Source: Runella rosea (GTDB lineage Bacteria; Bacteroidota; Bacteroidia; Cytophagales; Spirosomataceae). From it: a DNA stretch of 64,000 bases. The position numbers and the translations under genes were made by a program. Below are positions 52,016 to 64,000 of the stretch, piece after piece (the stretch's first letter is position 1; every line of letters begins with the position of its first letter). The stretch covers positions 3,906,001-3,970,000 of the forward strand of contig NZ_CP030850.1 in NCBI RefSeq assembly GCF_003325355.1, written 5' to 3'. The notes under the pieces are model-generated. The model saw nothing but the letters and a program-made list of their open reading frames with translations. It was not told where the DNA came from and made no database searches.

Positions 52016-53476
52016 TTACGCCAAAATAGGCTTTACAACTTTTCCGTGTACATCGGTTAGGCGGTAGCGCCGGCCCTGTGACTTGAAGGTAAGCTGCTCG
52101 TGGTCAATTCCCAACAAGTGCATGACCGTAGCCTGAAAATCATGAACGTGGACTGGGTCACGCACAATATTATAACTAAAATCGTCGGTTTCTCCGTGAA
52201 TATAGCCCTTCCTCACCCCTGCGCCAGCCATCCAAATGGTAAAGCAACGCGGGTGGTGGTCGCGGCCGTAGTTTTCTTTGGTGAGTTTCCCCTGTGAATA
52301 GGAGCCTCGACCAAATTCTCCGCCCCAAATAATGAGGGTATCATCTAATAAACCGCGCTGTTTCAAGTCCATCACCAACGCCGCCGAAGGTTGGTCGACC
52401 GACTTCGCCATGGTTTTAATGTCGTTAGGAAGGTTGCCGTGTTGGTCCCAGCCCTGATGATAAAGCTGAATAAACTTTACGCCTTTCTCTGCCAATTTCC
52501 TGGCTAATAAACAGTTTGCGGCAAATGTCCCCGCTTTTTTTGCTTCAGGACCGTACATATCAAAAATGTAGTCGGGTTCTTTGGAAATGTCCATCGTTTC
52601 GGGCACTGCCGTTTGCATCCTATAAGCCATTTCGTACTGCGCCATGCGGCTGTTGATCTCGGGGTCCAAAATCTGCTTATATTGTTCCTGATGCATTTTG
52701 GCCAAATAATCCAACATCCGTCGGCGGCTTGTGCGGTCGATGCCTGCGGGATTGTTCAGGTAAAATACTGGGTCAGGCCCTGAGCGAAAAACCACACCCT
52801 GATGCACGGAAGGCAGAAAACCGTTTGACCATAACTTAGCATATAAAGGCTGATCGCCGCCACGTCCTTTTGACAGCAATACCACAAACGAAGGCAGATT
52901 TTGATTGTCTGACCCTAACCCATAACTTACCCAAGAACCAAAAGAAGGCCTTCCGCCCTGCTGACTGCCCGTCTGAAAAAACGTAATGGCAGGGTCGTGG
53001 TTGATGGCCTCGGTATGCATGGAACGGATAAACGTGGCCTCATCAGTGACTTTAGAAATGTAAGGCAACAACTCACTAACCCACATTTTGCTTTGGCCGT
53101 GTTGGGCAAATTTATAGTACGATGCCGCCAGCGGAAAGCTGCTTTGCCCCGCTGTCATTCCCGTAAGGCGTTGACCCTTCCGAACCGATTCGGGCAAATC
53201 TTGCCCCCACATTTGTTCCAGCTTAGGCTTATAATCAAATAGTTCCAATTGCGAAGGCGCCCCGCTTTGATGCAAGTAAATGACGCGCTTTACCTTGGGG
53301 GGAAAATGGGGTTTTCCCAAAGCTCCGCCAGGACCAGTCGCGGCCTGTGCTTGATTTGTTCCCAACAACGACGAAAACGCCGCTGCGCCTAAGCCCATGC
53401 TAGTACGCGACAGAAAATTCCGACGACTGAGTTGGTCGTGGGTCAATTGTTCGATTTCTTCCAGTGCGTTTTTCAT
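52016..53476 (-). CDS. DUF1501 domain protein with Tat signal
   Basis: A 486-residue exported protein. The N-terminus has a twin-arginine signal: LSRRNFLSRTSMGLGAAAF, ending near AQA. The body is DUF1501, an alkaline-phosphatase/sulfatase-like fold (YLHQSGAPSQLELFDYKP, then QLYHQGWDQHGNLP and GRDHHPRCFTIWMAGAG). Paired genes with PSCyt1/DUF1553 proteins are frequent in Planctomycetota and some Bacteroidota, where they are suspected to degrade sulfated or complex polysaccharides, but the reaction is unproven. It overlaps the upstream gene by four bases. Confidence 0.93.
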   Translation of the reverse strand: MKNALEEIEQLTHDQLSRRNFLSRTSMGLGAAAFSSLLGTNQAQAATGPGGALGKPHFPPKVKRVIYLHQSGAPSQLELFDYKPKLEQMWGQDLPESVRKGQRLTGMTAGQSSFPLAASYYKFAQHGQSKMWVSELLPYISKVTDEATFIRSMHTEAINHDPAITFFQTGSQQGGRPSFGSWVSYGLGSDNQNLPSFVVLLSKGRGGDQPLYAKLWSNGFLPSVHQGVVFRSGPDPVFYLNNPAGIDRTSRRRMLDYLAKMHQEQYKQILDPEINSRMAQYEMAYRMQTAVPETMDISKEPDYIFDMYGPEAKKAGTFAANCLLARKLAEKGVKFIQLYHQGWDQHGNLPNDIKTMAKSVDQPSAALVMDLKQRGLLDDTLIIWGGEFGRGSYSQGKLTKENYGRDHHPRCFTIWMAGAGVRKGYIHGETDDFSYNIVRDPVHVHDFQATVMHLLGIDHEQLTFKSQGRRYRLTDVHGKVVKPILA

Positions 53477-56400
53477 CTCTTTATCACAAACTCATCAAAG
53501 TTCATTACGGTGCTTGCTACGATGGTCATGGCAGCCAATTCATTTTTATCCAATAACTTATCCACAGGATATTCACCAACACCCAACAATTCATCCGCGC
53601 GTTTGGGGTTCTTCACAAAGTCTTGGTATTCCTCTTGATACAACTGTGTCATGGCTTCCAACTCACCCGCTCGCGGCGGGCGGGACGTAAGGGCAGTAAA
53701 AATGCGAATGATAGATTTGGAATTACTGTCCGACCCTTTGTTGAACAATAAACTTCGTTGCGCTAATACTCTCGCGGCTTCTACAAACTGTGGGTCGTTG
53801 AGCGTGACCAAGGCCTGCAACGGAGTACTGGTTTTTTGGCGCTTGACACTGCAAAAATGCCGCTCGGACGCATCAAAATTAAGCATCATTGGTGGTGGAG
53901 AGCTACGCTTCCAAATGGTATACATACTTCGACGATAAAGTGTGTCGCCATGATTTTGAACGTATTGTACCGCATTTCGTGTGGCTAAAGCCTCCCAAAT
54001 ACCGTCGGGTTGGTAAGGGTGTACACTTGGCCCACCGATGTGGGCGCTTAATAAGCCACTCGACGCCAAGGCAGCATCCCGCACTTGCTCAGCTGAAATA
54101 CGATAGCTTGGGCCTCGGGCATATAATAAATTATTAGGGTCTAATTCTAATAATTCAGGTTTAGCAACCGATGATTGTCGATACGTCGCCGACATGACTA
54201 TTTCCTTTTGCAGCAATTTGTAATTCCAGCCGTGCGACGGACCGCCGTGCGACGGGCCGCCAGAATTTCTGAATTTGACTGCCAGATAATCTAACAATTC
54301 GAGATGCGTGGGCAAATCTCCCTGATTTCCAAAATCTTCGGCCGATACCACCAAGCCTTTGCCAAAATACCGCTGCCACATCCGATTCACCATCACACGC
54401 GCAAAGAGCGGGTTTTCTTCGTGAACGAGCCATTGAGCTAACCCTAGGCGATTGCGGGGCAATTCTTTCGGAATCTTAAAAAATTGGTCGGGCGTATCGG
54501 CCGTTACTTCTTCATCAATAGCATCGTAGGCTCCGCGTTTGAGTATATGCGCTTTGCGAGGATATTTGCGTTCTCGCATCACCATCACGTCAATTTCTTT
54601 ATTAAGCAACTCCGTTTCTTCCGCCAGCAATTGCTTCCGCTCGGCCAACAGTTCCTGGTTTTCGGTATCAATGTTGGTAACAAAATACTCAAAAAGGCCC
54701 TCTTTTTGAAAATCATTACGTTTATTGGCAGGAGTTTGAAGGGCGATTTTTACAAAATCTTTTTGGCCTATCACACTGTGGACTTCCAGCGGTGTCAGCT
54801 CACGGGCAAAGACCTTCAGTTCATCTACCGCGTAGCCTTTATAATTATAATCGTGGCGCTGTCCAATGGAAAAATTAGGTGCGCCCGCTCCCCAATTGGT
54901 ATGATTTTTTCCCAAAAGCATACTTTCCCGCAGTCCATCCGACATGACCCGACCCGTGGCTCGTTTTCCATTTATATATACTTTCAGGCCATTGGCTTTG
55001 CTTGAACCATCGTAAGTCATGGTAAGGTGTGCCCAACGATTGGCTTTCAGCACGTAGTCTGTCTCAAAATCAATGGCATTATCGGGCCAAACATTGCTCA
55101 AACGAAACGCCAGCCGCCCGTCTTCCAAACGCTCACATTCGTAGCCTCGAAAGCCGTTGAACGGCCCTAAATTACGGTTAAAGAGCGGGCCTTTGAATTT
55201 TGGGTCAGTGACGCCTACCCACAAACTGACGGTAAAAGGTTGATTTCGTTCAAAAAAGCCCGAAATGGTCGGCACTTCTTTGTATTGACCCCAACCATTG
55301 ATACCGCGCATTTGCATAAAGCTCTCTCCCACCAAGCGCACGCCTTTTCCGCGTGGGCTTTTGATACGTACGGGCAGAAAATCCAGATCCCCATTGGTTT
55401 CAAAATTAAGGGTATCATTGGCCAAATTTGTAAATATGGGCCGTCTTTTGTCTTTCTTTTCTCCCGCAGGGCGCACCGTCATGGAGTCAAATGGCACATC
55501 AATCATCAAAGCCGTTTGGGGTGAAATTAGTGGTGCTTGTGCAGACTTAGCCACCCATTTTTCAAACCTCTGACGAAGGGCAGATGCATTTTGCAACTGC
55601 GTTTTTTCAACGATAGAAAGCTTCTCTTTGATAAATCGCAGTTGCTTTTCCGTTGCGGGCTTTGGAAGGGTGATGCTCGGACTGGGTTCACCGTTGTAGG
55701 GGATTTGGCCGTATTCATTGTTGTTATTAAAAAACGCAAACAATGAATAATAATCTTTCTGACTGATGGGGTCGTATTTGTGGTCATGACAACGAGCGCA
55801 TTCAACCGTCAGCCCCAAAAATGCCTTTCCAAAAGTATTGGTACGGTCGGCTACGTATTCTACAAAATATTCTTGTGGCACAATTCCTCCCTCCTGGCTC
55901 TGCTGATGATTGCGATTGAACGCCGTAGCTATCAGATGTTCTTTTTGTGGATTGGGCAACATATCGCCCGCCAATTGCCAAGTCACAAAGCGGTCAAACG
56001 CTAGATTTCGATTGAAAGATTTAATGACCCAATCGCGGTAAGGCCACATGGTGCGTAGGCCATCGTCCTGATAACCGTGGGTATCAGCGTAGCGCGCCAC
56101 ATCGAGCCAGTCGACGGCGTGATGTTCGCCAAAATGCGGGTTTTTCAATAATTCATTAACGACTTTTTCGTAAGCATTGGGAGAGGTATCATTTACAAAG
56201 GCTTCGACTTGTTCGGGCGTTGGGGGCAATCCGATTAAATCCAGATAAACGCGTCGAAGCAGGGTGGTTTTGGGCGCTTCGGCGCTGCCAGTCAGCTTTT
56301 TATCTTCTAATTTTTTAAGAATAAATCGGTCGATGTCATTTTTGACCCAACCTTCATTTTTTACTTTTGGCAACGCTGGTTTAACTGGGGCCACAAATGA

Positions 56401-56838
56401 CCAATGCGGCTTGTATTCAGCTCCCTGCTCAATCCATTTGATAAGAATGGCTTTCTCTTCTACCGACAGCGTCAGGTGAGAAGCTGGCTCAGGCATCACG
56501 TACTCAGGATCTTCTGACAAAATCCGATGCACTACGTCGCTTTTGGCAGGATTGCCCGCTACGATGGCTTTCAGGCCGCTTTCGCATTCTTTGTCGTAGG
56601 CGGCATCGGCAATATCCAAACGCAAATCAGCTTTTTGTTTATTCTTATCGGGGCCATGACACGCAAAACAGCGGTCCGACAGAATAGGCTTTACGTGGAG
56701 ATTATAATCCAACTTTTCGGGTAAGTTCGCCGCCGCCTTTTCGACGTCCTGCGGTACCTCAATGCTACCACCGCAGGCACTTACCAACGCCATTATTACG
56801 ATTCCAAAACTCCAATGATAGAAAGCTCTTTTTTCCAT
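53473..56838 (-). CDS. PSCyt1 - DUF1549 - LamG - DUF1553 lipoprotein
   Basis: A 1121-residue multidomain lipoprotein (lipobox ending Cys22). A planctomycete-type cytochrome c domain holds the haem motif CFACH at residues 57-61, followed by DUF1549 (about 160-370), a concanavalin/LamG-like domain (about 500-680, for example WGQYKEVPTISGFF and FSIGQRHDYNYKG) and DUF1553 (about 780-1110). The family is thought to act at the outer surface or periplasm. Near residues 861-870 the sequence GGPSHGGPSHG comes from a 15-base direct repeat (54230-54259) that is not expected in DUF1553. It is translationally coupled to the DUF1501 gene. Confidence 0.93.
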   Translation of the reverse strand: MEKRAFYHWSFGIVIMALVSACGGSIEVPQDVEKAAANLPEKLDYNLHVKPILSDRCFACHGPDKNKQKADLRLDIADAAYDKECESGLKAIVAGNPAKSDVVHRILSEDPEYVMPEPASHLTLSVEEKAILIKWIEQGAEYKPHWSFVAPVKPALPKVKNEGWVKNDIDRFILKKLEDKKLTGSAEAPKTTLLRRVYLDLIGLPPTPEQVEAFVNDTSPNAYEKVVNELLKNPHFGEHHAVDWLDVARYADTHGYQDDGLRTMWPYRDWVIKSFNRNLAFDRFVTWQLAGDMLPNPQKEHLIATAFNRNHQQSQEGGIVPQEYFVEYVADRTNTFGKAFLGLTVECARCHDHKYDPISQKDYYSLFAFFNNNNEYGQIPYNGEPSPSITLPKPATEKQLRFIKEKLSIVEKTQLQNASALRQRFEKWVAKSAQAPLISPQTALMIDVPFDSMTVRPAGEKKDKRRPIFTNLANDTLNFETNGDLDFLPVRIKSPRGKGVRLVGESFMQMRGINGWGQYKEVPTISGFFERNQPFTVSLWVGVTDPKFKGPLFNRNLGPFNGFRGYECERLEDGRLAFRLSNVWPDNAIDFETDYVLKANRWAHLTMTYDGSSKANGLKVYINGKRATGRVMSDGLRESMLLGKNHTNWGAGAPNFSIGQRHDYNYKGYAVDELKVFARELTPLEVHSVIGQKDFVKIALQTPANKRNDFQKEGLFEYFVTNIDTENQELLAERKQLLAEETELLNKEIDVMVMRERKYPRKAHILKRGAYDAIDEEVTADTPDQFFKIPKELPRNRLGLAQWLVHEENPLFARVMVNRMWQRYFGKGLVVSAEDFGNQGDLPTHLELLDYLAVKFRNSGGPSHGGPSHGWNYKLLQKEIVMSATYRQSSVAKPELLELDPNNLLYARGPSYRISAEQVRDAALASSGLLSAHIGGPSVHPYQPDGIWEALATRNAVQYVQNHGDTLYRRSMYTIWKRSSPPPMMLNFDASERHFCSVKRQKTSTPLQALVTLNDPQFVEAARVLAQRSLLFNKGSDSNSKSIIRIFTALTSRPPRAGELEAMTQLYQEEYQDFVKNPKRADELLGVGEYPVDKLLDKNELAAMTIVASTVMNFDEFVIKR
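54230..54259. repeat. 15-bp in-frame direct repeat in the DUF1553 gene
   Basis: CCGTGCGACGGACCG (54230-54244) and CCGTGCGACGGGCCG (54245-54259) differ in one base. In the minus-strand protein this gives a doubled GPSHG, a length polymorphism caused by slippage. Confidence 0.9.
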
Positions 56839-57470: not shown

Positions 57471-58583
57471 TTAAGAGATAAACACTTCTCCTTTACTCAA
57501 CAATCGAGCCGTACGAATTACGCCTGACTTATAAACGATAATCTGATTATCAACGAGTTCATACTCAAGATTTACCGTAAATTCACCCGAAGGATGCTCA
57601 ACACTTAGTGAGGTGTGCATATCGTTGAGCGTATTCAATTTATAACTCATCACACCTCGTTCATCATTTATCACTGTATCAGGAACCACGCAAGCAGTAG
57701 CGACCGAAACCGCCGCCAAAACACCGATGGCTTCGTGAACGACGTGAGGAATGAACATTCGTGTATTAACAACTCCGCCATTTTCAGGGGGCGAAACCAA
57801 ACACATTTTGGGAATGGTTTGGTCTTTGACATCGCCCAAATTCATCAAATGCCCCGCTTTCAAGCGGATTGCTTCAATTTGTTGTCTGAGAGGCTCATTG
57901 GCTTCAAGCACTTCTTTGGTTTCATTGCCTACCAAACCAAAATCTTGCGCTCGCATTATCACAATGGGCATACCATTGTCTATACAAGTAGCTTCTACTC
58001 CGTCAATTACATCCTTTGCGTGGCCCGTGGGCAGCAAAGCGCCGCAGGTTGAGCCTACGGTTTCTAAATAATTACAAATAATCGGGGCAGCCGTGCCAGA
58101 GACGCCATCTACTTTGGCATTACCTTGAGTTTCGATTTGACCGTTGGGGGTTTGTACCACTACTTCACAAATTCCGCCCGTATTGACGATATTAATGCGG
58201 GCAGAAGTGACAGGATGCGTCGCCTCAATCATTCCCGATTCGATGGCAAAAGGCACAATACCCGCCAAAATGTTGCCGCAAGTTTGGGTAGTCGATACTT
58301 TTCCTTTACCTACAACCACTTGTACAAAGAGATAGTCTAAATCGGCTGGGCGGCATCCCGCTTCGGGCGTTATTGATTTGCTGACAATGGCTACTTTGCT
58401 GGTCAAAGAAGTAGCACCGCCTAAGCCGTCAATCTGGCGAGGGTCGCCCTCAGTAGTTCCTTCCATTGCTAGAAGAAGCCAACGGTTTCGCTCGTTTTCA
58501 TCGGTAGGCAGGTCTTCGGCTTTGAAGAAAAGCCCTTTGGAGCTTCCACCCCGAAGCTGCATAAATGGAATGGCCGTTTGCAT
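57471..58583 (-). CDS. galD: PrpF-family isomerase, 4-oxalomesaconate tautomerase-like
   Basis: A 370-residue PrpF-fold isomerase. Blocks that match GalD of Pseudomonas are MQLRGGSSKGLFF, RQIDGLGGATSLTSKVAI, CGNILAGIVPFAIESG, CGALLPTGHAKDVIDGVEATC and HPSGEFTVNLEYE. GalD turns the keto form of 4-oxalomesaconate into the enol form during gallate breakdown. Its stop end of the operon directly follows the dehydrogenase gene with no gap (58583/58584). The family similarity is strong; the substrate is inferred from gene context as well. Confidence 0.85.
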   Translation of the reverse strand: MQTAIPFMQLRGGSSKGLFFKAEDLPTDENERNRWLLLAMEGTTEGDPRQIDGLGGATSLTSKVAIVSKSITPEAGCRPADLDYLFVQVVVGKGKVSTTQTCGNILAGIVPFAIESGMIEATHPVTSARINIVNTGGICEVVVQTPNGQIETQGNAKVDGVSGTAAPIICNYLETVGSTCGALLPTGHAKDVIDGVEATCIDNGMPIVIMRAQDFGLVGNETKEVLEANEPLRQQIEAIRLKAGHLMNLGDVKDQTIPKMCLVSPPENGGVVNTRMFIPHVVHEAIGVLAAVSVATACVVPDTVINDERGVMSYKLNTLNDMHTSLSVEHPSGEFTVNLEYELVDNQIIVYKSGVIRTARLLSKGEVFIS

Positions 58584-59348
58584 TTAGTTCATCAGTTTTG
58601 CCAAATTATCTCTCGTGGCACGGGTGACAATCGGGTCCAGATTGCGTTCTTCCAGCATTTCAATCACGGCTTCCATTTCGTGCATTCGGCGCAGGGCGTG
58701 GGTTTTGCTGCCTTCCACAAAACGGTCAATCAAGTCGTCGTTTCCGCCAATAATCGAACTGATTTGTTTGCGGATATACGCAGGCATCCCGAATGCCTCC
58801 CCCGCTTCTACGGCCTCACAGATAACTGCCGCCACGCCTTTGTAGACAATCGAGCGCAGCAATTTCATGGTTGCGGCATCGCCTACTTGGCCATTTTCGA
58901 CGAGCGAAAGGTCTAACTTTAGCGGTTTCATTTTCTCCAAAAAAGCAAAACCCTCCTCTCCCGCTGCTAAAAACGGGGTTTTAATGCCCTTGGTCGGCAC
59001 AGGTGCCATGATGGCCAAATCAATAAATTGGACACCCGTTGGCTTCAAAATCATGTCAATCTTCTTCTTCTTGTCGGGCGAAGAAGTATTCATTTCCAGA
59101 AAAAACTGCGTGTTTTTTAGGACTGGAAAAATATCCTGTGCCACTTCTTCTGATACCGACGATAGGTTGACGCTGAAAATCACATCAACGTCTTTGACCG
59201 CTTCGGCATTGTTTGAGGCAAGCGTAACAGAAGGGTGTAATTCTCGAAGGGGATTGGGGTCGTAGCCCGTCACGGTCACGCCCATTTCAGCCAAATCATT
59301 GGCAAAACGAGAACCTGCTTCGCCTAAACCCAAAATGGCAATTTTCAT
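58584..59348 (-). CDS. 6-phosphogluconate dehydrogenase-like NAD(P) oxidoreductase, DUF1932
   Basis: The start at ATG 59348 (MKIAILGLGEAGSRFANDL) gives 254 residues. The NAD(P)-binding motif GLGEAGSRF is at residues 7-15 and YDPNP follows. The C-terminal half is the DUF1932 helical domain (MKLLRSIVYKGVAAVICEAVE). This family reduces or oxidises beta-hydroxyacids. In the pathway it might oxidise a ring-cleavage product or reduce a side product; its exact step is unknown. No equivalent is part of the classical gallate pathway. Confidence 0.85.
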   Translation of the reverse strand: MKIAILGLGEAGSRFANDLAEMGVTVTGYDPNPLRELHPSVTLASNNAEAVKDVDVIFSVNLSSVSEEVAQDIFPVLKNTQFFLEMNTSSPDKKKKIDMILKPTGVQFIDLAIMAPVPTKGIKTPFLAAGEEGFAFLEKMKPLKLDLSLVENGQVGDAATMKLLRSIVYKGVAAVICEAVEAGEAFGMPAYIRKQISSIIGGNDDLIDRFVEGSKTHALRRMHEMEAVIEMLEERNLDPIVTRATRDNLAKLMN

Positions 59349-59410
59349 AATAATAAATGATAAATGATAAGTAATGAGCACAACCAGATGAGTTTTTGCC
59401 CATTATTGTA

Positions 59411-60028
59411 CTAATACCCAAACTTTTCATCCCAGCCATAAATCTGAAGAGAAGTTCTTCCTTTTCTGAGTTCGGCTCTTGTTCTTGCTTCTTTGGCTTC
59501 TCTTGCGGCAGCTTTTTCGATGGTTTCTTCCAGTTTATTGAACGGAACGACCACGACGCCATCACGGTCACCCACCACAATATCGCCCGGATGAATCAGT
59601 ACGTCACCGATTATAATGGGTTCATTGAGGGTTCCGTCGCCGTGATTTGACGTACCTCGAATGCATAACCCTCTTGAAAAAATAGGGAAGCCCATCGCCT
59701 CAATATCGTCGGCATCGCGCACGCAGGCATCGATAACTAAGCCATTGATTCCTTTGGTTTGAGCCCCCAAACTCATCAAATCGCCCCAGTAACCTGCTTC
59801 ATAAAAACCTGAACAATTGGCAATTAAGACATCTCCTGCTTTAGCATACGCATACGCCCGATGCAACAAAACATTGTCACGAGGCATGGTTTGAACCGTG
59901 TAAGCAGGGCCGCAGACTTTCATGCTTGCGGCGATTGGTTTGATGGTCGAAGGCAAATTACCTTTGTTTCCAAGGGCTTCACAAATCGTAGCGGCTGAAA
60001 ATTTCGAAAGTTCTTTTATTAACTCCAT
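59411..60028 (-). CDS. RraA-family aldolase, 4-carboxy-4-hydroxy-2-oxoadipate aldolase-like
   Basis: The start at ATG 60028 (MELIKELSKFSAATICEALG) gives 205 residues; a TTG at 60037 is also in frame. The RraA fold is shown by GDVLIANCSGFYEAGYWG, LVIDACVRDADDIEAMGFPI, CIRGTSN and GDRDGVVVVP. In GalC/LigK-type members the RD of VRDADDI binds the metal and pyruvate. The enzyme would split 4-carboxy-4-hydroxy-2-oxoadipate into pyruvate and oxaloacetate. Context with GalB- and GalD-like genes makes this more likely than the RNase E inhibitor role of RraA. Confidence 0.82.
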   Translation of the reverse strand: MELIKELSKFSAATICEALGNKGNLPSTIKPIAASMKVCGPAYTVQTMPRDNVLLHRAYAYAKAGDVLIANCSGFYEAGYWGDLMSLGAQTKGINGLVIDACVRDADDIEAMGFPIFSRGLCIRGTSNHGDGTLNEPIIIGDVLIHPGDIVVGDRDGVVVVPFNKLEETIEKAAAREAKEARTRAELRKGRTSLQIYGWDEKFGY

Positions 60029-60099
60029 ATTTTGCAATGGCTTATCAGTGGTAATTGCAGGAGGTTTTCTGATGCGAAAACCTCCTAGAATTCAAAAAA

Positions 60100-61758
60100 T
60101 TATGCCAATGATTTTCGGGCATCGCGGTCTGGGTCGTTTACCAGTGCAGAGGTATCATCCAAAATCATCGTTTCACCATTTTGGGTGGTATATGATTTCC
60201 AAGGGGGCAAGCCTCCACCGTTAGGATTTCCTGTTTTGACAAAACTGAGAAATGATTTTGCCATTTTTTCCGATAAAGCCCGAGGGCGTTTTCCACCGCC
60301 AGTATGGGTAAGCATCAAATCGGTGTTGTAAAACCAAAAACAAATATCATCGCAGTGGAAGGCCCGCATTCTGCCGTCAAAAAGGGGTGGTTGCCAGCCA
60401 AACCAAGCCAAATAGACCGGAGCTTTTCGTTGCGACGTCTTAGCATCGGCGATGGCAACGGCATTTTTTCGGTTTGAAAGTATCAAAGACCAAATCTCAA
60501 TGGGACGGGCCTTCGGAAAACTCCGGGCATACGCATCGGCTATTTCGCCCGATTTTTCCCCGAATCGCGGTTTGAGTCTTTCTTTTACATCGGTCAGGGT
60601 CAGTTTCTCCAACGTCGCATCTGTTCGACTTGGGCTTTGCTCATTAAATGTTGAGCAAATAATCAGTGGAATATCGCTTGAGAAATGCGTTGCGTCGCTG
60701 AAAAACGGGCTACTGTTTAGGTATTCTCCATCGGCTACGGGTGAGAACCCTCCTCTTTGCACGTTGAGACGTTTGGCTTCGTCAGCCATTTTGACAACGG
60801 CTCTGTCGGCGATGTCTATGTATTCTCTCCACGGAATTTGTTGTAACTTTTCTATCTCCCCAGCTTTCAGCCCTGCTTCCTCCATTATTTTCAGCCCTAG
60901 TTTTTCGGCATATTCTTTATTGACACCCGCCAATGAACCGCCGCTCAACACTACGGCCTTATGAAATAATCCTTTAGCCGCCGGCATATTCATCAAGGTT
61001 GTTACTTTAGAGCCTCCCCCCGACTGGCCGATGATGGTCACATTGCTTGCATCACCCCCAAAATTGGCAATGTTATTTTTGACCCATTCGAGGGCGGCTA
61101 CCATGTCCAAATTACCTACATTCCCCGAGGCGGGATATCCACCTGCCGCTTTTAAATGGCTATATCCCAATGACCCGAGTCGGTGGTTGAGCGAACAAAA
61201 TACGATATTGCCAAGGCGCGAGATATTTTCGCCGTGATAGCCGTCTTGCTCAATGCCATTTCCATTTACAAATCCGCCGCCATGTAGCCAAACAACCACT
61301 GGGCGTTTTTGGGTATCTAGGGCAGGTGTCCAGACGTTGATTTTCAAGCAATCTTCCGATACGTCGTCGTAGTTCCAGTGATCCACAAACGACGCATAGG
61401 TGTTTGCATATCGTTTTTCCATGATTTGCGGGGCCGTGTTTCCCCACCAAAGTGCAGGTCGAATTTCTGGCCAAGGGGCAGGTTTTTGAGGCGGCATAAA
61501 ACGATTTTTACCCGACGTATCTGCGCCGTAGGGTACTCCTAAAAAAGTATGAATTCCGCGAAGGATGAAACCTCTCACTTTGCCATACTCGGTATTGGCA
61601 ACCGCGATGCTGTCGCCCACAAATAAAATCTGGTCATCCGCGTTTGGCTTTGATGATTTGGGGGGCTCGTACGCATGGGCCGTTGATTGATGCGCAACCC
61701 CCAAACTGGCGGCCCCAATCCCTAAAGACTGAATAAAATTACGTCTTGATGATTTCAT
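60100..61758 (-). CDS. Tat-exported type-B carboxylesterase
   Basis: A 552-residue alpha/beta hydrolase of the carboxylesterase type-B family. A Tat signal (SSRRNFIQSLGIGAASLG) is at the front. The oxyanion loop VVWLHGGGFVNGNG and the nucleophile elbow IIGQSGGGSK (Ser in GQSGG) are clear; the catalytic His is in the FHCDDICFWFY region near the C-terminus. Export suggests it cuts an ester outside the cytoplasm, such as an alkyl or galloyl ester, to free the aromatic acid handled by the rest of the operon. The 147- and 71-base gaps around it are the longest in the operon. Confidence 0.9.
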   Translation of the reverse strand: MKSSRRNFIQSLGIGAASLGVAHQSTAHAYEPPKSSKPNADDQILFVGDSIAVANTEYGKVRGFILRGIHTFLGVPYGADTSGKNRFMPPQKPAPWPEIRPALWWGNTAPQIMEKRYANTYASFVDHWNYDDVSEDCLKINVWTPALDTQKRPVVVWLHGGGFVNGNGIEQDGYHGENISRLGNIVFCSLNHRLGSLGYSHLKAAGGYPASGNVGNLDMVAALEWVKNNIANFGGDASNVTIIGQSGGGSKVTTLMNMPAAKGLFHKAVVLSGGSLAGVNKEYAEKLGLKIMEEAGLKAGEIEKLQQIPWREYIDIADRAVVKMADEAKRLNVQRGGFSPVADGEYLNSSPFFSDATHFSSDIPLIICSTFNEQSPSRTDATLEKLTLTDVKERLKPRFGEKSGEIADAYARSFPKARPIEIWSLILSNRKNAVAIADAKTSQRKAPVYLAWFGWQPPLFDGRMRAFHCDDICFWFYNTDLMLTHTGGGKRPRALSEKMAKSFLSFVKTGNPNGGGLPPWKSYTTQNGETMILDDTSALVNDPDRDARKSLA

Positions 61759-61905
61759 AATCTAACTGATATTAATAGGTTAAAGAAAAAAATAGACAGG
61801 ACAATAATACCTTAAAATAGAGCGCCTTTAGGGGACTTTTTTCTCAAAATCATTGAATCAGTCTTTTTAATCTATCAATAGTTCAAAATAGTCGACATTC
61901 TGCTT

Positions 61906-62625
61906 TTAAAAAATAGATGAAACCACCCTCGGTACCTGACTCTGGTGAGCTTCGGCAAATTTGATATCTTTCTTTCCCGAAATGCGGCGCGCATGATTGG
62001 CGCGTCGAGAGGCCAATTCTGCATAATAATCTTTCAAATAAGTTTGCGCGCCCATACAGCTCATAGCCTCCAATTTTTTGTCCATAACCGATGAAATATC
62101 AATGAAAGTATCGGGTACAAAGCCGCAAAGTTCGGGCTGATGGGGTTCAAACGAATACCAAACGGGCGGGTCAATATTTTTGAAAGCACTCGGCACACCC
62201 GCCCCTGACGACAACAATCGTGCACGTTGGGTGGCCTGAAAAGCCAACGGATGGTCGGGATTGAAGGGGTCTTTTTCGGAATGGGTCAGAATCACCGTAG
62301 GCTCAAAATCTCCGATTATTTTAGTCAGTTGCGTAATACGTTCGTCAGAAATCAACATCGGATAATCGCCCCAATCCAGAAATTGAATCGGCGTTCCGAG
62401 AATATCAGCAGCTTTTTGCGCTTGCTCGTGGCGAATGATTTTCACGCTTTCTTCGGTACGATTGGGATTTTCTTTCCACAATTCGCCTGATTCGCCCCGT
62501 TCTCCGTACGACAAGGCAATCACCAAGGTATCAGCTCCTTCTTCAATGGCTTTGGCGAGGGTGCCGGCGGCTCGCCACACAAAATCGCCCGAATGCGCTC
62601 CGATGACTAATAATTTCTTCTTCAT
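61906..62625 (-). CDS. galB: PIG-L-fold hydratase, 4-oxalomesaconate hydratase (GalB)-like
   Basis: A 239-residue protein of the PIG-L/LmbE superfamily. The usual HPDDE motif reads GAHSGDFVWRAAG, as in GalB of Pseudomonas putida rather than in N-acetylglucosamine deacetylases. Other GalB-like blocks are LSYGERGESGELW, DWGDYPM, LTHSEKDPFNPDHPLA and FEPHQPELCGFVPD. GalB adds water to 4-oxalomesaconate to form 4-carboxy-4-hydroxy-2-oxoadipate. It follows the dioxygenase gene by 27 bases on the same transcript. Strong similarity is recalled, not computed. Confidence 0.82.
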   Translation of the reverse strand: MKKKLLVIGAHSGDFVWRAAGTLAKAIEEGADTLVIALSYGERGESGELWKENPNRTEESVKIIRHEQAQKAADILGTPIQFLDWGDYPMLISDERITQLTKIIGDFEPTVILTHSEKDPFNPDHPLAFQATQRARLLSSGAGVPSAFKNIDPPVWYSFEPHQPELCGFVPDTFIDISSVMDKKLEAMSCMGAQTYLKDYYAELASRRANHARRISGKKDIKFAEAHQSQVPRVVSSIF

Positions 62626-62652
62626 AAGTACTTAAAAATGGGTCATATAAAA

Positions 62653-63618
62653 TCAATCCAATTCCTCTGGCATGGGGGTACCTTTTGTATGAAAACTCGG
62701 CACAGTAGCCAAGCCCCATGCCTGCCCTTTTTTACGCTCTTCCAACGTCCAGACGACGGTTTCATAATCAGGATCAACAATCAGTCGGGCGGTGGTATTG
62801 GCAATTTCTATCCGGTTGCCGCCGGGTTCATACACATACAGAAAAAATGTTTGCTGGATGGTGTGCTTGTGAGGCCCTGTTTCGATAAAAATGCCGTTTT
62901 CAAGACAAATATCGGCGGCAATCAAGACTTCTTCGCGACTGTTGACGGCATAAGTAACGTGATGAAAACGGTCATTCATTCCTAAATAATCTTCAGTCAC
63001 TGCCAAATCGTAGGATTTAGAATTGACCATAAACCAAACCGCTTTGGGGTTCAAATCCTCCAGATTATCGACAATGGTCTCGGTCAAAATCCCTCCTAAG
63101 TTGTTCAGTTGAAAATCCCGAAAAGCCCTAACATCTTTGGCAAACAAATTCAGATGGTCTATTCGTCTGACGTTGATGCCTCGGGCAGGAAACTTACTGG
63201 CCGTATTTTTCAAGGCCGAAGTATCAGCCGCGCCCGATTTATATTTTTCTGTTTCAAAATAGATTTCTGTCAAATGCCCACTTGGCGAATGATATTCATA
63301 CGCGGGCCCGTGGCCCATATCTCCGTTGTTCCAACCCATGCCATAGCCACTTTTTTGAAGGGCCGCCACGCGACGTTGGAGCGCCTCTGGACTTTTGGCT
63401 CGCCACGCAAAGTGCTTCATACCAGCGTGTTTGTGAGCGGTCAGCTTCAGCGTATGGTGTTCATAGTCATCGTATGCTCTCAGATAAACCGAATCGCCTT
63501 TGACGGCCGAGATGGACATGCCCATAATGTCGGTAAAAAAGCGCGTACTAGCCTCCAATTTGGGCGTAAATAGTTCTACGTGCGCAATATGGGCCAAATC
63601 CCAAAGGTGATTTTTCAT
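62653..63618 (-). CDS. VOC-family extradiol ring-cleavage dioxygenase
   Basis: The start at ATG 63618 (MKNHLWDLAHIAHVELFTPK) gives 321 residues, the size of catechol 2,3-dioxygenases. Two VOC domains repeat: residues about 8-130 (LAHIAHVELFTPKLEASTRFF) and about 150-300 (IDHLNLFAKDVRAF). The likely iron ligands are His in RIDHLNLF, His in RFHHVTYAV and Glu in GNRIEIAN, the H-H-E triad of type I extradiol enzymes. It is the first gene of the aromatic operon and divergent from an AraC-type regulator. The ring substrate is unknown, perhaps gallate-like. Confidence 0.88.
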   Translation of the reverse strand: MKNHLWDLAHIAHVELFTPKLEASTRFFTDIMGMSISAVKGDSVYLRAYDDYEHHTLKLTAHKHAGMKHFAWRAKSPEALQRRVAALQKSGYGMGWNNGDMGHGPAYEYHSPSGHLTEIYFETEKYKSGAADTSALKNTASKFPARGINVRRIDHLNLFAKDVRAFRDFQLNNLGGILTETIVDNLEDLNPKAVWFMVNSKSYDLAVTEDYLGMNDRFHHVTYAVNSREEVLIAADICLENGIFIETGPHKHTIQQTFFLYVYEPGGNRIEIANTTARLIVDPDYETVVWTLEERKKGQAWGLATVPSFHTKGTPMPEELD

Positions 63619-63728
63619 TGATTTTGAGAACAGAAACAAAGTGATTTTTCAGTTTGCAATGTTAGGCAGTGATGGCTACTGTTTTTGGATATTATTTTTA
63701 ATATTGCAGATAAAAATCAAACATTCTT

Positions 63729-64000
63729 ATGGGCAGCAGCAAACCCATTCTCAACTTTGAAGGACTGTATGGAGACCTAAACAGCCGCAATCCGTCAGAA
63801 TACATTTTTCTCGAACTGATTACCACCCGCAGCCAAACTTTCAACTGGGTGATTCAGCCTCACATTCATACCCATCTATTTCAGGTATTTATCGTTAATA
63901 GCGGTCAGGTTAAGTTTCAGGGAAGCATCAGAATTGACACCTACACCGCCCCTTGTATTTTCCTCATTCCTCCCACTGCCCTGCATGGTTTAACCTACAC
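63729..64000 (+). CDS. AraC-family regulator with cupin sensor, 3'-truncated by window edge
   Basis: The reading frame opens at ATG 63729 and runs to the right edge, giving 90 residues. It begins MGSSKPILNFEGLYGDL and includes the cupin-like block WVIQPHIHTHLFQVFIVNSG, then PCIFLIPPTALHGLTY, which is the ligand-binding N-terminus of AraC regulators such as HpaA and PobR-like activators of aromatic catabolism. The DNA-binding domain lies outside the window. Being divergent from the dioxygenase gene (110-base gap) it probably controls the operon and itself. Confidence 0.8.
   Translation, partial: MGSSKPILNFEGLYGDLNSRNPSEYIFLELITTRSQTFNWVIQPHIHTHLFQVFIVNSGQVKFQGSIRIDTYTAPCIFLIPPTALHGLTY

Follow-up and report, generated by a model that had tools for sequence, protein, structure and literature searches.

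A gal-type operon of Runella rosea with a VOC-fold enzyme as the proposed gallate dioxygenase

Gallate, one of the units of which plant tannins are made, is a major plant-derived aromatic compound. In Pseudomonas putida, it is degraded by the gal pathway, which comprises GalA, GalB, GalC, and GalD and is initiated by GalA, an enzyme with the LigB fold. A preliminary description of a 64,000-nucleotide stretch of the Runella rosea genome (the window; positions 3906001–3970000 of contig NZ_CP030850.1 in a 7.16 Mb genome) pointed to a gallate-like operon at minus-strand positions 57471–63639, in which the only dioxygenase has the VOC fold. This raises the question of which enzyme opens the ring and which ring is opened. 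Comparison of sequences and gene neighborhoods makes it highly probable that this is a gallate catabolic operon in which a VOC-fold enzyme, with gallate as its ring substrate, replaces GalA and its counterpart DesB. The best reading of the enzyme is a VOC gallate dioxygenase that is usually annotated as "catechol 2,3-dioxygenase".

Gene layout and lower pathway

The operon consists of six minus-strand genes. In transcription order, they encode the VOC-fold (type I) dioxygenase (62653–63618), a GalB-like 4-oxalomesaconate hydratase of the PIG-L family (61906–62625), a carboxylesterase (60100–61758), a GalC/LigK-like 4-carboxy-4-hydroxy-2-oxoadipate (CHA) aldolase with the RraA fold (59411–60028), a DUF1932 or beta-hydroxyacid-dehydrogenase-like NAD(P) oxidoreductase (58584–59348), and GalD, a 4-oxalomesaconate tautomerase of the PrpF family (57471–58583). 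All six genes listed in the preliminary description were recovered, with three starts revised. For the dioxygenase, ATG 63618 (321 amino acids) is a more probable start than TTG 63639, and ATG codons at 60028 and 59348 are preferred for the aldolase (longest open reading frame, 59411–60037) and the DUF1932 gene, respectively. The intergenic gaps between the longest open reading frames are 27, 147, 62, 29, and 0 bp in transcription order; with the preferred ATG starts, the esterase–aldolase gap is 71 bp and the aldolase–DUF1932 gap 62 bp.

The lower-pathway enzymes were assigned by family models and structure matches. GalD scored 464.5 bits against the 4-oxalomesaconate tautomerase model NF033377, above the cut-off of 440, and the aldolase scored 196.3 bits against NF006731 (cut-off 179); it did not reach the cut-off of the narrower TIGR02798 (186.2 versus 304.5 bits). 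The PIG-L protein (PF02585) matched PDB 5cgz, titled "4-oxalmesaconate hydratase", with an E-value of 3.7e-62, and its other six PDB matches had E-values of at least 2.5e-8. Together, these assignments point to a route through 4-oxalomesaconate. This compound is the immediate product of gallate 4,5-cleavage, and protocatechuate leads to it by way of 4-carboxy-2-hydroxymuconate-6-semialdehyde (CHMS) and 2-pyrone-4,6-dicarboxylate (PDC).

The hydratase, aldolase, and tautomerase thus belong to the same families as those of the Pseudomonas putida gal pathway. The Runella rosea operon differs in having a VOC-fold dioxygenase where GalA has the LigB fold, and in the addition of an exported esterase and the DUF1932 oxidoreductase. 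AromaDeg places gallate dioxygenases in the LigB superfamily (PMC4250580). Searches with the DUF1932 protein (NAD_binding_2 and DUF1932 domains) returned only the beta-hydroxyacid dehydrogenase superfamily and no specific pathway step. As a separate observation, a DUF1932 protein recurs beside VOC and GalB genes in several phyla, without an obvious step in gallate breakdown.

Linkage of VOC and gal genes in other genomes

Related loci were taken as the best 80 of at least 588 stretches encoding a relative at a loose threshold; these relatives need not all have one function. Sixteen of these loci (L016–L031) were assigned to Bacteroidota by title. GalB follows the VOC gene in all 16. The RraA-fold aldolase is present in 14 and GalD in 13; the contigs of L020 and L029 end before the aldolase, and those of L019, L020, and L029 before GalD. 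When gene order was compared across these relatives, VOC–GalB–RraA–GalD recurred in every one of the 13 loci that reach GalD. The order of the genes present is identical in all 16 loci, with extra genes in between in L017, L025, and L027. DUF1932 is found in 11 of the 16; Jiulongibacter (L028) lacks it between RraA and GalD, and none was found in L025. In Runella aurantiaca (L017, 14278–15447), the gene inserted between the aldolase and DUF1932 genes is AAA-ATPase-like by eye.

VOC orthologs (at least 78% identity) and GalD occurred in the same 4 of 194 sampled genomes of the order, and three other genomes of the order carried only VOC paralogs of 33–40% identity and no GalD. At the level of the class, both occurred in the same 2 of 295 genomes. 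The genomes in which they co-occur are near kin, so these counts represent few independent events.

Linkage was also observed outside Bacteroidota. The VOC gene stands with GalB and RraA in Chloroflexi (L032–L034, L047) and in Alphaproteobacteria (L013–L015, L035, and Bradyrhizobium-type loci), and with GalB, RraA, and GalD in an Acidobacteria metagenome-assembled genome (MAG; L082). Plasmids gave 81 records with a match, of which 11 were inspected; their gene tables are incomplete, and one record is unannotated. In four of the 11 (Roseibium, Agrobacterium, Paracoccaceae, and Thioclava), the annotated neighbors of the VOC gene include GalB, the aldolase, and GalD. A Rhizobium etli plasmid has GalB and GalD, a Thermus plasmid PIG-L and aldolase, and Methylobacterium and Roseomonas plasmids the aldolase, with no PIG-L annotated. 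In a 91-row quick tree, the window and 17 other Bacteroidota rows formed one group (SH-aLRT 100), every member of which has GalB; over the whole tree, 45 of the 91 rows have GalB at most 6 kb from the VOC gene. The association between the VOC and gal genes is therefore strong in Bacteroidota and partial elsewhere. In the Bradyrhizobium-type loci found among L036–L095, many VOC genes have no gal gene within 6 kb, although their sequences closely resemble those of linked VOC genes.

LigB-type enzymes, ring substrate, and esterases

LigB-type dioxygenases were then considered in 15 operon-bearing Bacteroidota genomes, namely that of Runella rosea and the genomes behind 14 of the 16 loci (all but L020 and L029). 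The preliminary description had called a LigB-fold enzyme absent. This is correct for the operon; the genome holds one PF02900 (LigB) match about 162 kb away, and this protein is of the 4,5-DOPA-extradiol-dioxygenase type (335.7 bits, cut-off 233). Thirteen of the 15 genomes have some PF02900 match, and none of the 16 matches among them is of the LigAB/GalA type, all being DOPA-type. Two Roseomonas controls behaved in the opposite way, matching a Roseomonas gallate-dioxygenase-like query, which the 16 did not match, and not the DOPA-type query. A search with PF07746 (LigA) gave no match in the Runella rosea genome and none in the control genomes either, so that this negative carries no weight. 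The sole PF02900 gene of the Runella rosea genome (L004, 1502–6045), of DOPA type, lies beside genes that by eye resemble HpaB-type hydroxylase, enoyl-CoA hydratase, and HMG-CoA reductase genes. The Roseomonas gilardii plasmid (L011, 7408–9960) carries a LigB-type gene (387.3 bits against a gallate dioxygenase model with a cut-off of 412) and a VOC gene, with one alpha/beta hydrolase gene between them.

Protocatechuate is the least improbable of the alternative ring substrates. The gallate and protocatechuate 4,5-cleavage routes share their lower pathway. In such a scheme, the VOC enzyme would form CHMS, the DUF1932 protein would act as CHMS dehydrogenase to give PDC, and a hydrolase would release 4-oxalomesaconate for GalD, GalB, and the aldolase. 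In favor of this scheme, 21 of 90 labeled relatives have a DUF1932 relative no more than 6 kb from the VOC gene, and the Thermus VOC gene has genes for 4-hydroxybenzoate 3-monooxygenase and aldehyde dehydrogenase nearby; with this hydroxylase gene and no annotated GalD in Thermus, some members of the family may use protocatechuate. However, the Jiulongibacter locus has no DUF1932 gene between RraA and GalD, and a LigI-like hydrolase was found in none of the 15 genomes by a single Amidohydro_2-type query (E 1e-10), with a positive Bradyrhizobium control and with other hydrolase families not tested. Moreover, PcaH scored above its cut-off in 11 of the 15 genomes, including that of Runella rosea (351.6 versus 296.4), and a pobA–pcaDC–pcaH set lies within 10 kb upstream in L030; the remaining four genomes have no PcaH above the cut-off, which counts in favor of protocatechuate. 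On balance, we regard protocatechuate as an unlikely substrate of the Runella rosea operon. On the Thermus oshimai plasmid (L009, 7342–15355), VOC, PIG-L, RraA, and DUF1932 genes are accompanied by genes for a DUF6282 protein, an aldehyde dehydrogenase, and a 4-hydroxybenzoate 3-monooxygenase; this set may encode a protocatechuate version of the route.

The gallate reading was further examined through the esterases. The carboxylesterase of the window scored 282.2 bits against PF00135, matched carboxylesterase structures, and carries a GQSGG motif at residue 244 and, as judged by eye, a twin-arginine-type signal. It is not listed for the subtype-B tannase model NF041556 at E 0.001, and the best score for this model in the Runella rosea genome was 47.9 bits against a cut-off of 300. 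Tannases do occur at related clusters. The VOC gene of Arcicella aurantiaca (L027) has a subtype-B tannase gene immediately upstream (650.2 bits versus 300; E 1.2e-135 to solved tannases); enzymes of this kind liberate gallate. In an Arcicella MAG (L029), a homolog groups with this tannase by clustering only, and an MFS-cluster gene lies between this homolog and the VOC gene. On the Agrobacterium plasmid pAt (walnut), a gene for a PF07519 tannase/feruloyl esterase (437.9 bits) comes after the cluster. The L025 cluster contains a PF00135 esterase 82% identical to that of the window, and a BD-FAE-type hydrolase (Pfam assignment on L021 only) lies near L019, L021, and L023 instead. In total, one of three esterase clusters is found in or near 8 of the 16 Bacteroidota loci. 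These esterases belong to different families of the alpha/beta-hydrolase fold, and their repeated recruitment fits an ester of the ring acid. The earlier suggestion that the exported esterase hints at an ester substrate is thus strengthened.

The same eight loci could be read differently: the ring substrate would be 3-O-methylgallate or an intact gallate ester, and the esterase would cut the half-ester after ring opening. The esterases of the window, L021, L027, and L014 start with signal-like stretches (by eye), however, so that ester cutting is expected before uptake. No O-demethylase is present among the operon genes, and the Arcicella enzyme is a true subtype-B tannase. We therefore consider this reading very improbable.

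Active site of the dioxygenase and proposed pathway

Returning to gallate as the ring substrate, we examined the dioxygenase itself. The protein contains a VOC domain (PF00903, 75.8 bits) and is 98% identical to the VOC proteins of Runella aurantiaca and Runella sp. CRIBMP. Its AlphaFold model has a mean predicted local distance difference test (pLDDT) score of 84.8, with weaker blocks (53–80) at about residues 121–150 and most of 241–318, and its best PDB fold match is 3lm4 (TM 0.92, by query length). It scored 301.4 bits against catechol 2,3-dioxygenase (TIGR03211) and 193.7 bits against homoprotocatechuate 2,3-dioxygenase (TIGR02295), below the respective cut-offs of 320.2 and 321.4. Homologs from Thermus (332.2) and Bradyrhizobium (L036, 358.7) do pass the TIGR03211 cut-off, which probably explains the public name "catechol 2,3-dioxygenase".

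Residues were matched by sequence alignment to homoprotocatechuate dioxygenase (1f1x) across 91 rows, which include the window and many close kin. His155 (63154–63156), His220 (62959–62961), and Glu271 (62806–62808) would form the 2-His-1-Glu metal site, and Tyr261 and His252 align with Tyr257 and His248 of homoprotocatechuate dioxygenase. In that enzyme, the tail of the substrate is bound by Arg243, Arg293, and Trp304, for which the VOC rows have Thr/Ser, Gly, and Phe; the window protein has Thr and Gly at the two Arg positions. Furthermore, Tyr203 (63010–63012) occupies the position of His200, the second-sphere catalytic His. Tyr was found here in all 91 rows (90 in the alignment and L146 on re-reading). 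His is kept in 1f1x and 3lm4, as well as in the three VOC paralogs that could be read here (L007, L147, and L149, but not L148); the Glu-ligand column reads Phe in L007 and L149, with the Glu of L007 one residue on, probably through an alignment slip. His200 has been much mutated in homoprotocatechuate dioxygenase, with E, N, Q, and C variants in PDB titles, and changes at this position reportedly yield intradiol cleavage of a poor substrate. Its replacement is suggestive because gallate cleavage breaks the bond between two hydroxylated carbons.

The enzyme shares its fold, the 2-His-1-Glu positions, and the Tyr257/His248 equivalents with known VOC dioxygenases (3lm4, AphC 7q2a, catechol 2,3-dioxygenase, and homoprotocatechuate 2,3-dioxygenase), but differs in having Tyr for His200, in lacking Arg243, Arg293, and Trp304, and in its gal-pathway context. 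The closest solved sequence, PDB 9wgj (titled "Catechol 1,2-dioxygenase"; 444.2 bits, A2 profile), also has Tyr at the His200 position, but Ser replaces His250 in its GPHKH motif and Leu replaces Thr247. DesB of Sphingobium SYK-6 is described as a type II extradiol dioxygenase for gallate (PMC3962378); the Runella rosea enzyme is proposed to open the same compound, but is of type I. Elsewhere, the Runella rosea genome (L007, 1474–3681; about 5.575 Mb on the contig) encodes another VOC dioxygenase with 36% identity, and the next gene is that of an FrsA-like alpha/beta hydrolase.

That the operon enzyme is an ordinary catechol 2,3- or homoprotocatechuate dioxygenase placed beside gal genes by chance, as the public annotation of plasmid relatives, the TIGR03211 scores, and the half of relatives without GalB nearby might suggest, is the least probable reading and hardly credible, given the gal-gene linkage in several phyla, scores under both cut-offs, the loss of Arg243, Arg293, and His200, and the lack of semialdehyde-processing partners among the operon genes.

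Several observations nevertheless weigh against a gallate dioxygenase, besides the Thermus neighborhood and the four genomes without PcaH. In the tree, 46 of the 91 rows have no GalB less than 6 kb away from the VOC gene, and a single Bradyrhizobium-type clade accounts for 36 of these; no gal gene was seen in the stretches viewed of the Chimaeribacter and Pantoea plasmids. Of the 15 genomes, only 3 encode a true subtype-B tannase, and that of Runella rosea is not among them. Roseomonas holds a LigB-type dioxygenase in addition to the VOC enzyme, and the gallate route does not explain the DUF1932 oxidoreductase. The Tyr at the His200 position is also present in rows unlinked to gal genes, and is thus a feature of the family, not of its association with gal genes. 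The assignment of gallate cleavage to the VOC enzyme is one that we infer from gene context.

The comparative evidence (the VOC–GalB–RraA–GalD linkage, no LigAB/GalA-type enzyme in the 15 genomes, and PcaH in 11 of them) supports the gallate-like route of the preliminary description, with a VOC enzyme in the place of the LigB-fold one. Its phrase "convergent or hybrid route" applies in the sense of convergence to the first step, a probable non-homologous replacement; the later steps are those of the ordinary gal pathway. In the proposed pathway, the exported esterase would release gallate from plant gallate esters, and gallate would then be taken up; no transporter gene lies within the operon, and an MFS gene adjoins the cluster in several relatives. 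The VOC-fold metal(II) dioxygenase, as its linkage suggests, would open the 4,5 bond to give 4-oxalomesaconate in place of LigB-fold GalA/DesB. By family assignment, GalD would tautomerize this product, GalB would hydrate it, and the RraA-fold aldolase would yield pyruvate and oxaloacetate. The DUF1932 protein might, at a guess, act on an intermediate or side product, probably multi-carboxylated.

A divergent gene that adds to the earlier gene list starts at 63729 on the plus strand (63729–64000 in the window, ending 607 bases past it as read in L003). It was called from open reading frames, and its product is of the AraC type, as scored on a Runella ortholog (L006; HTH_18, 71.3 bits); it is the likely regulator. 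A promoter-like pattern gave three matches in the window versus 1.69 expected, none at the operon start. Downstream of the operon, a separate gene pair (52016–56838) encodes a PSCyt1/PSCyt2/PSD1 protein and a DUF1501 protein.

Our verdict is that the Runella rosea operon is a gal-type operon with a ring-opening enzyme non-homologous to GalA/DesB, and thus a variation on a known pathway. No report of a VOC gallate dioxygenase was found in the literature searched, whose coverage was limited, so that one may nonetheless have been published. Passages of two reports name gallate dioxygenases of the LigB type (PMC4250580; PMC3962378). Whether the family amounts to a widespread second kind of gallate dioxygenase, with the VOC fold and an origin independent of GalA/DesB, seems to us evenly balanced. 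It would be marked by the fixed His-to-Tyr exchange, and the Tyr may suit a trihydroxylated ring, in which the bond between two hydroxyl-bearing carbons is broken and an acid is formed directly; an extradiol scaffold would then give an intradiol-like result in a natural enzyme. The fixed Tyr offers a direct test of the role of the second-sphere His in a much-mutated enzyme class. If the VOC enzyme does the work of GalA/DesB, surveys based on GalA/DesB would miss these degraders, whose ring-opening enzyme is filed by annotation under catechol 2,3-dioxygenase.

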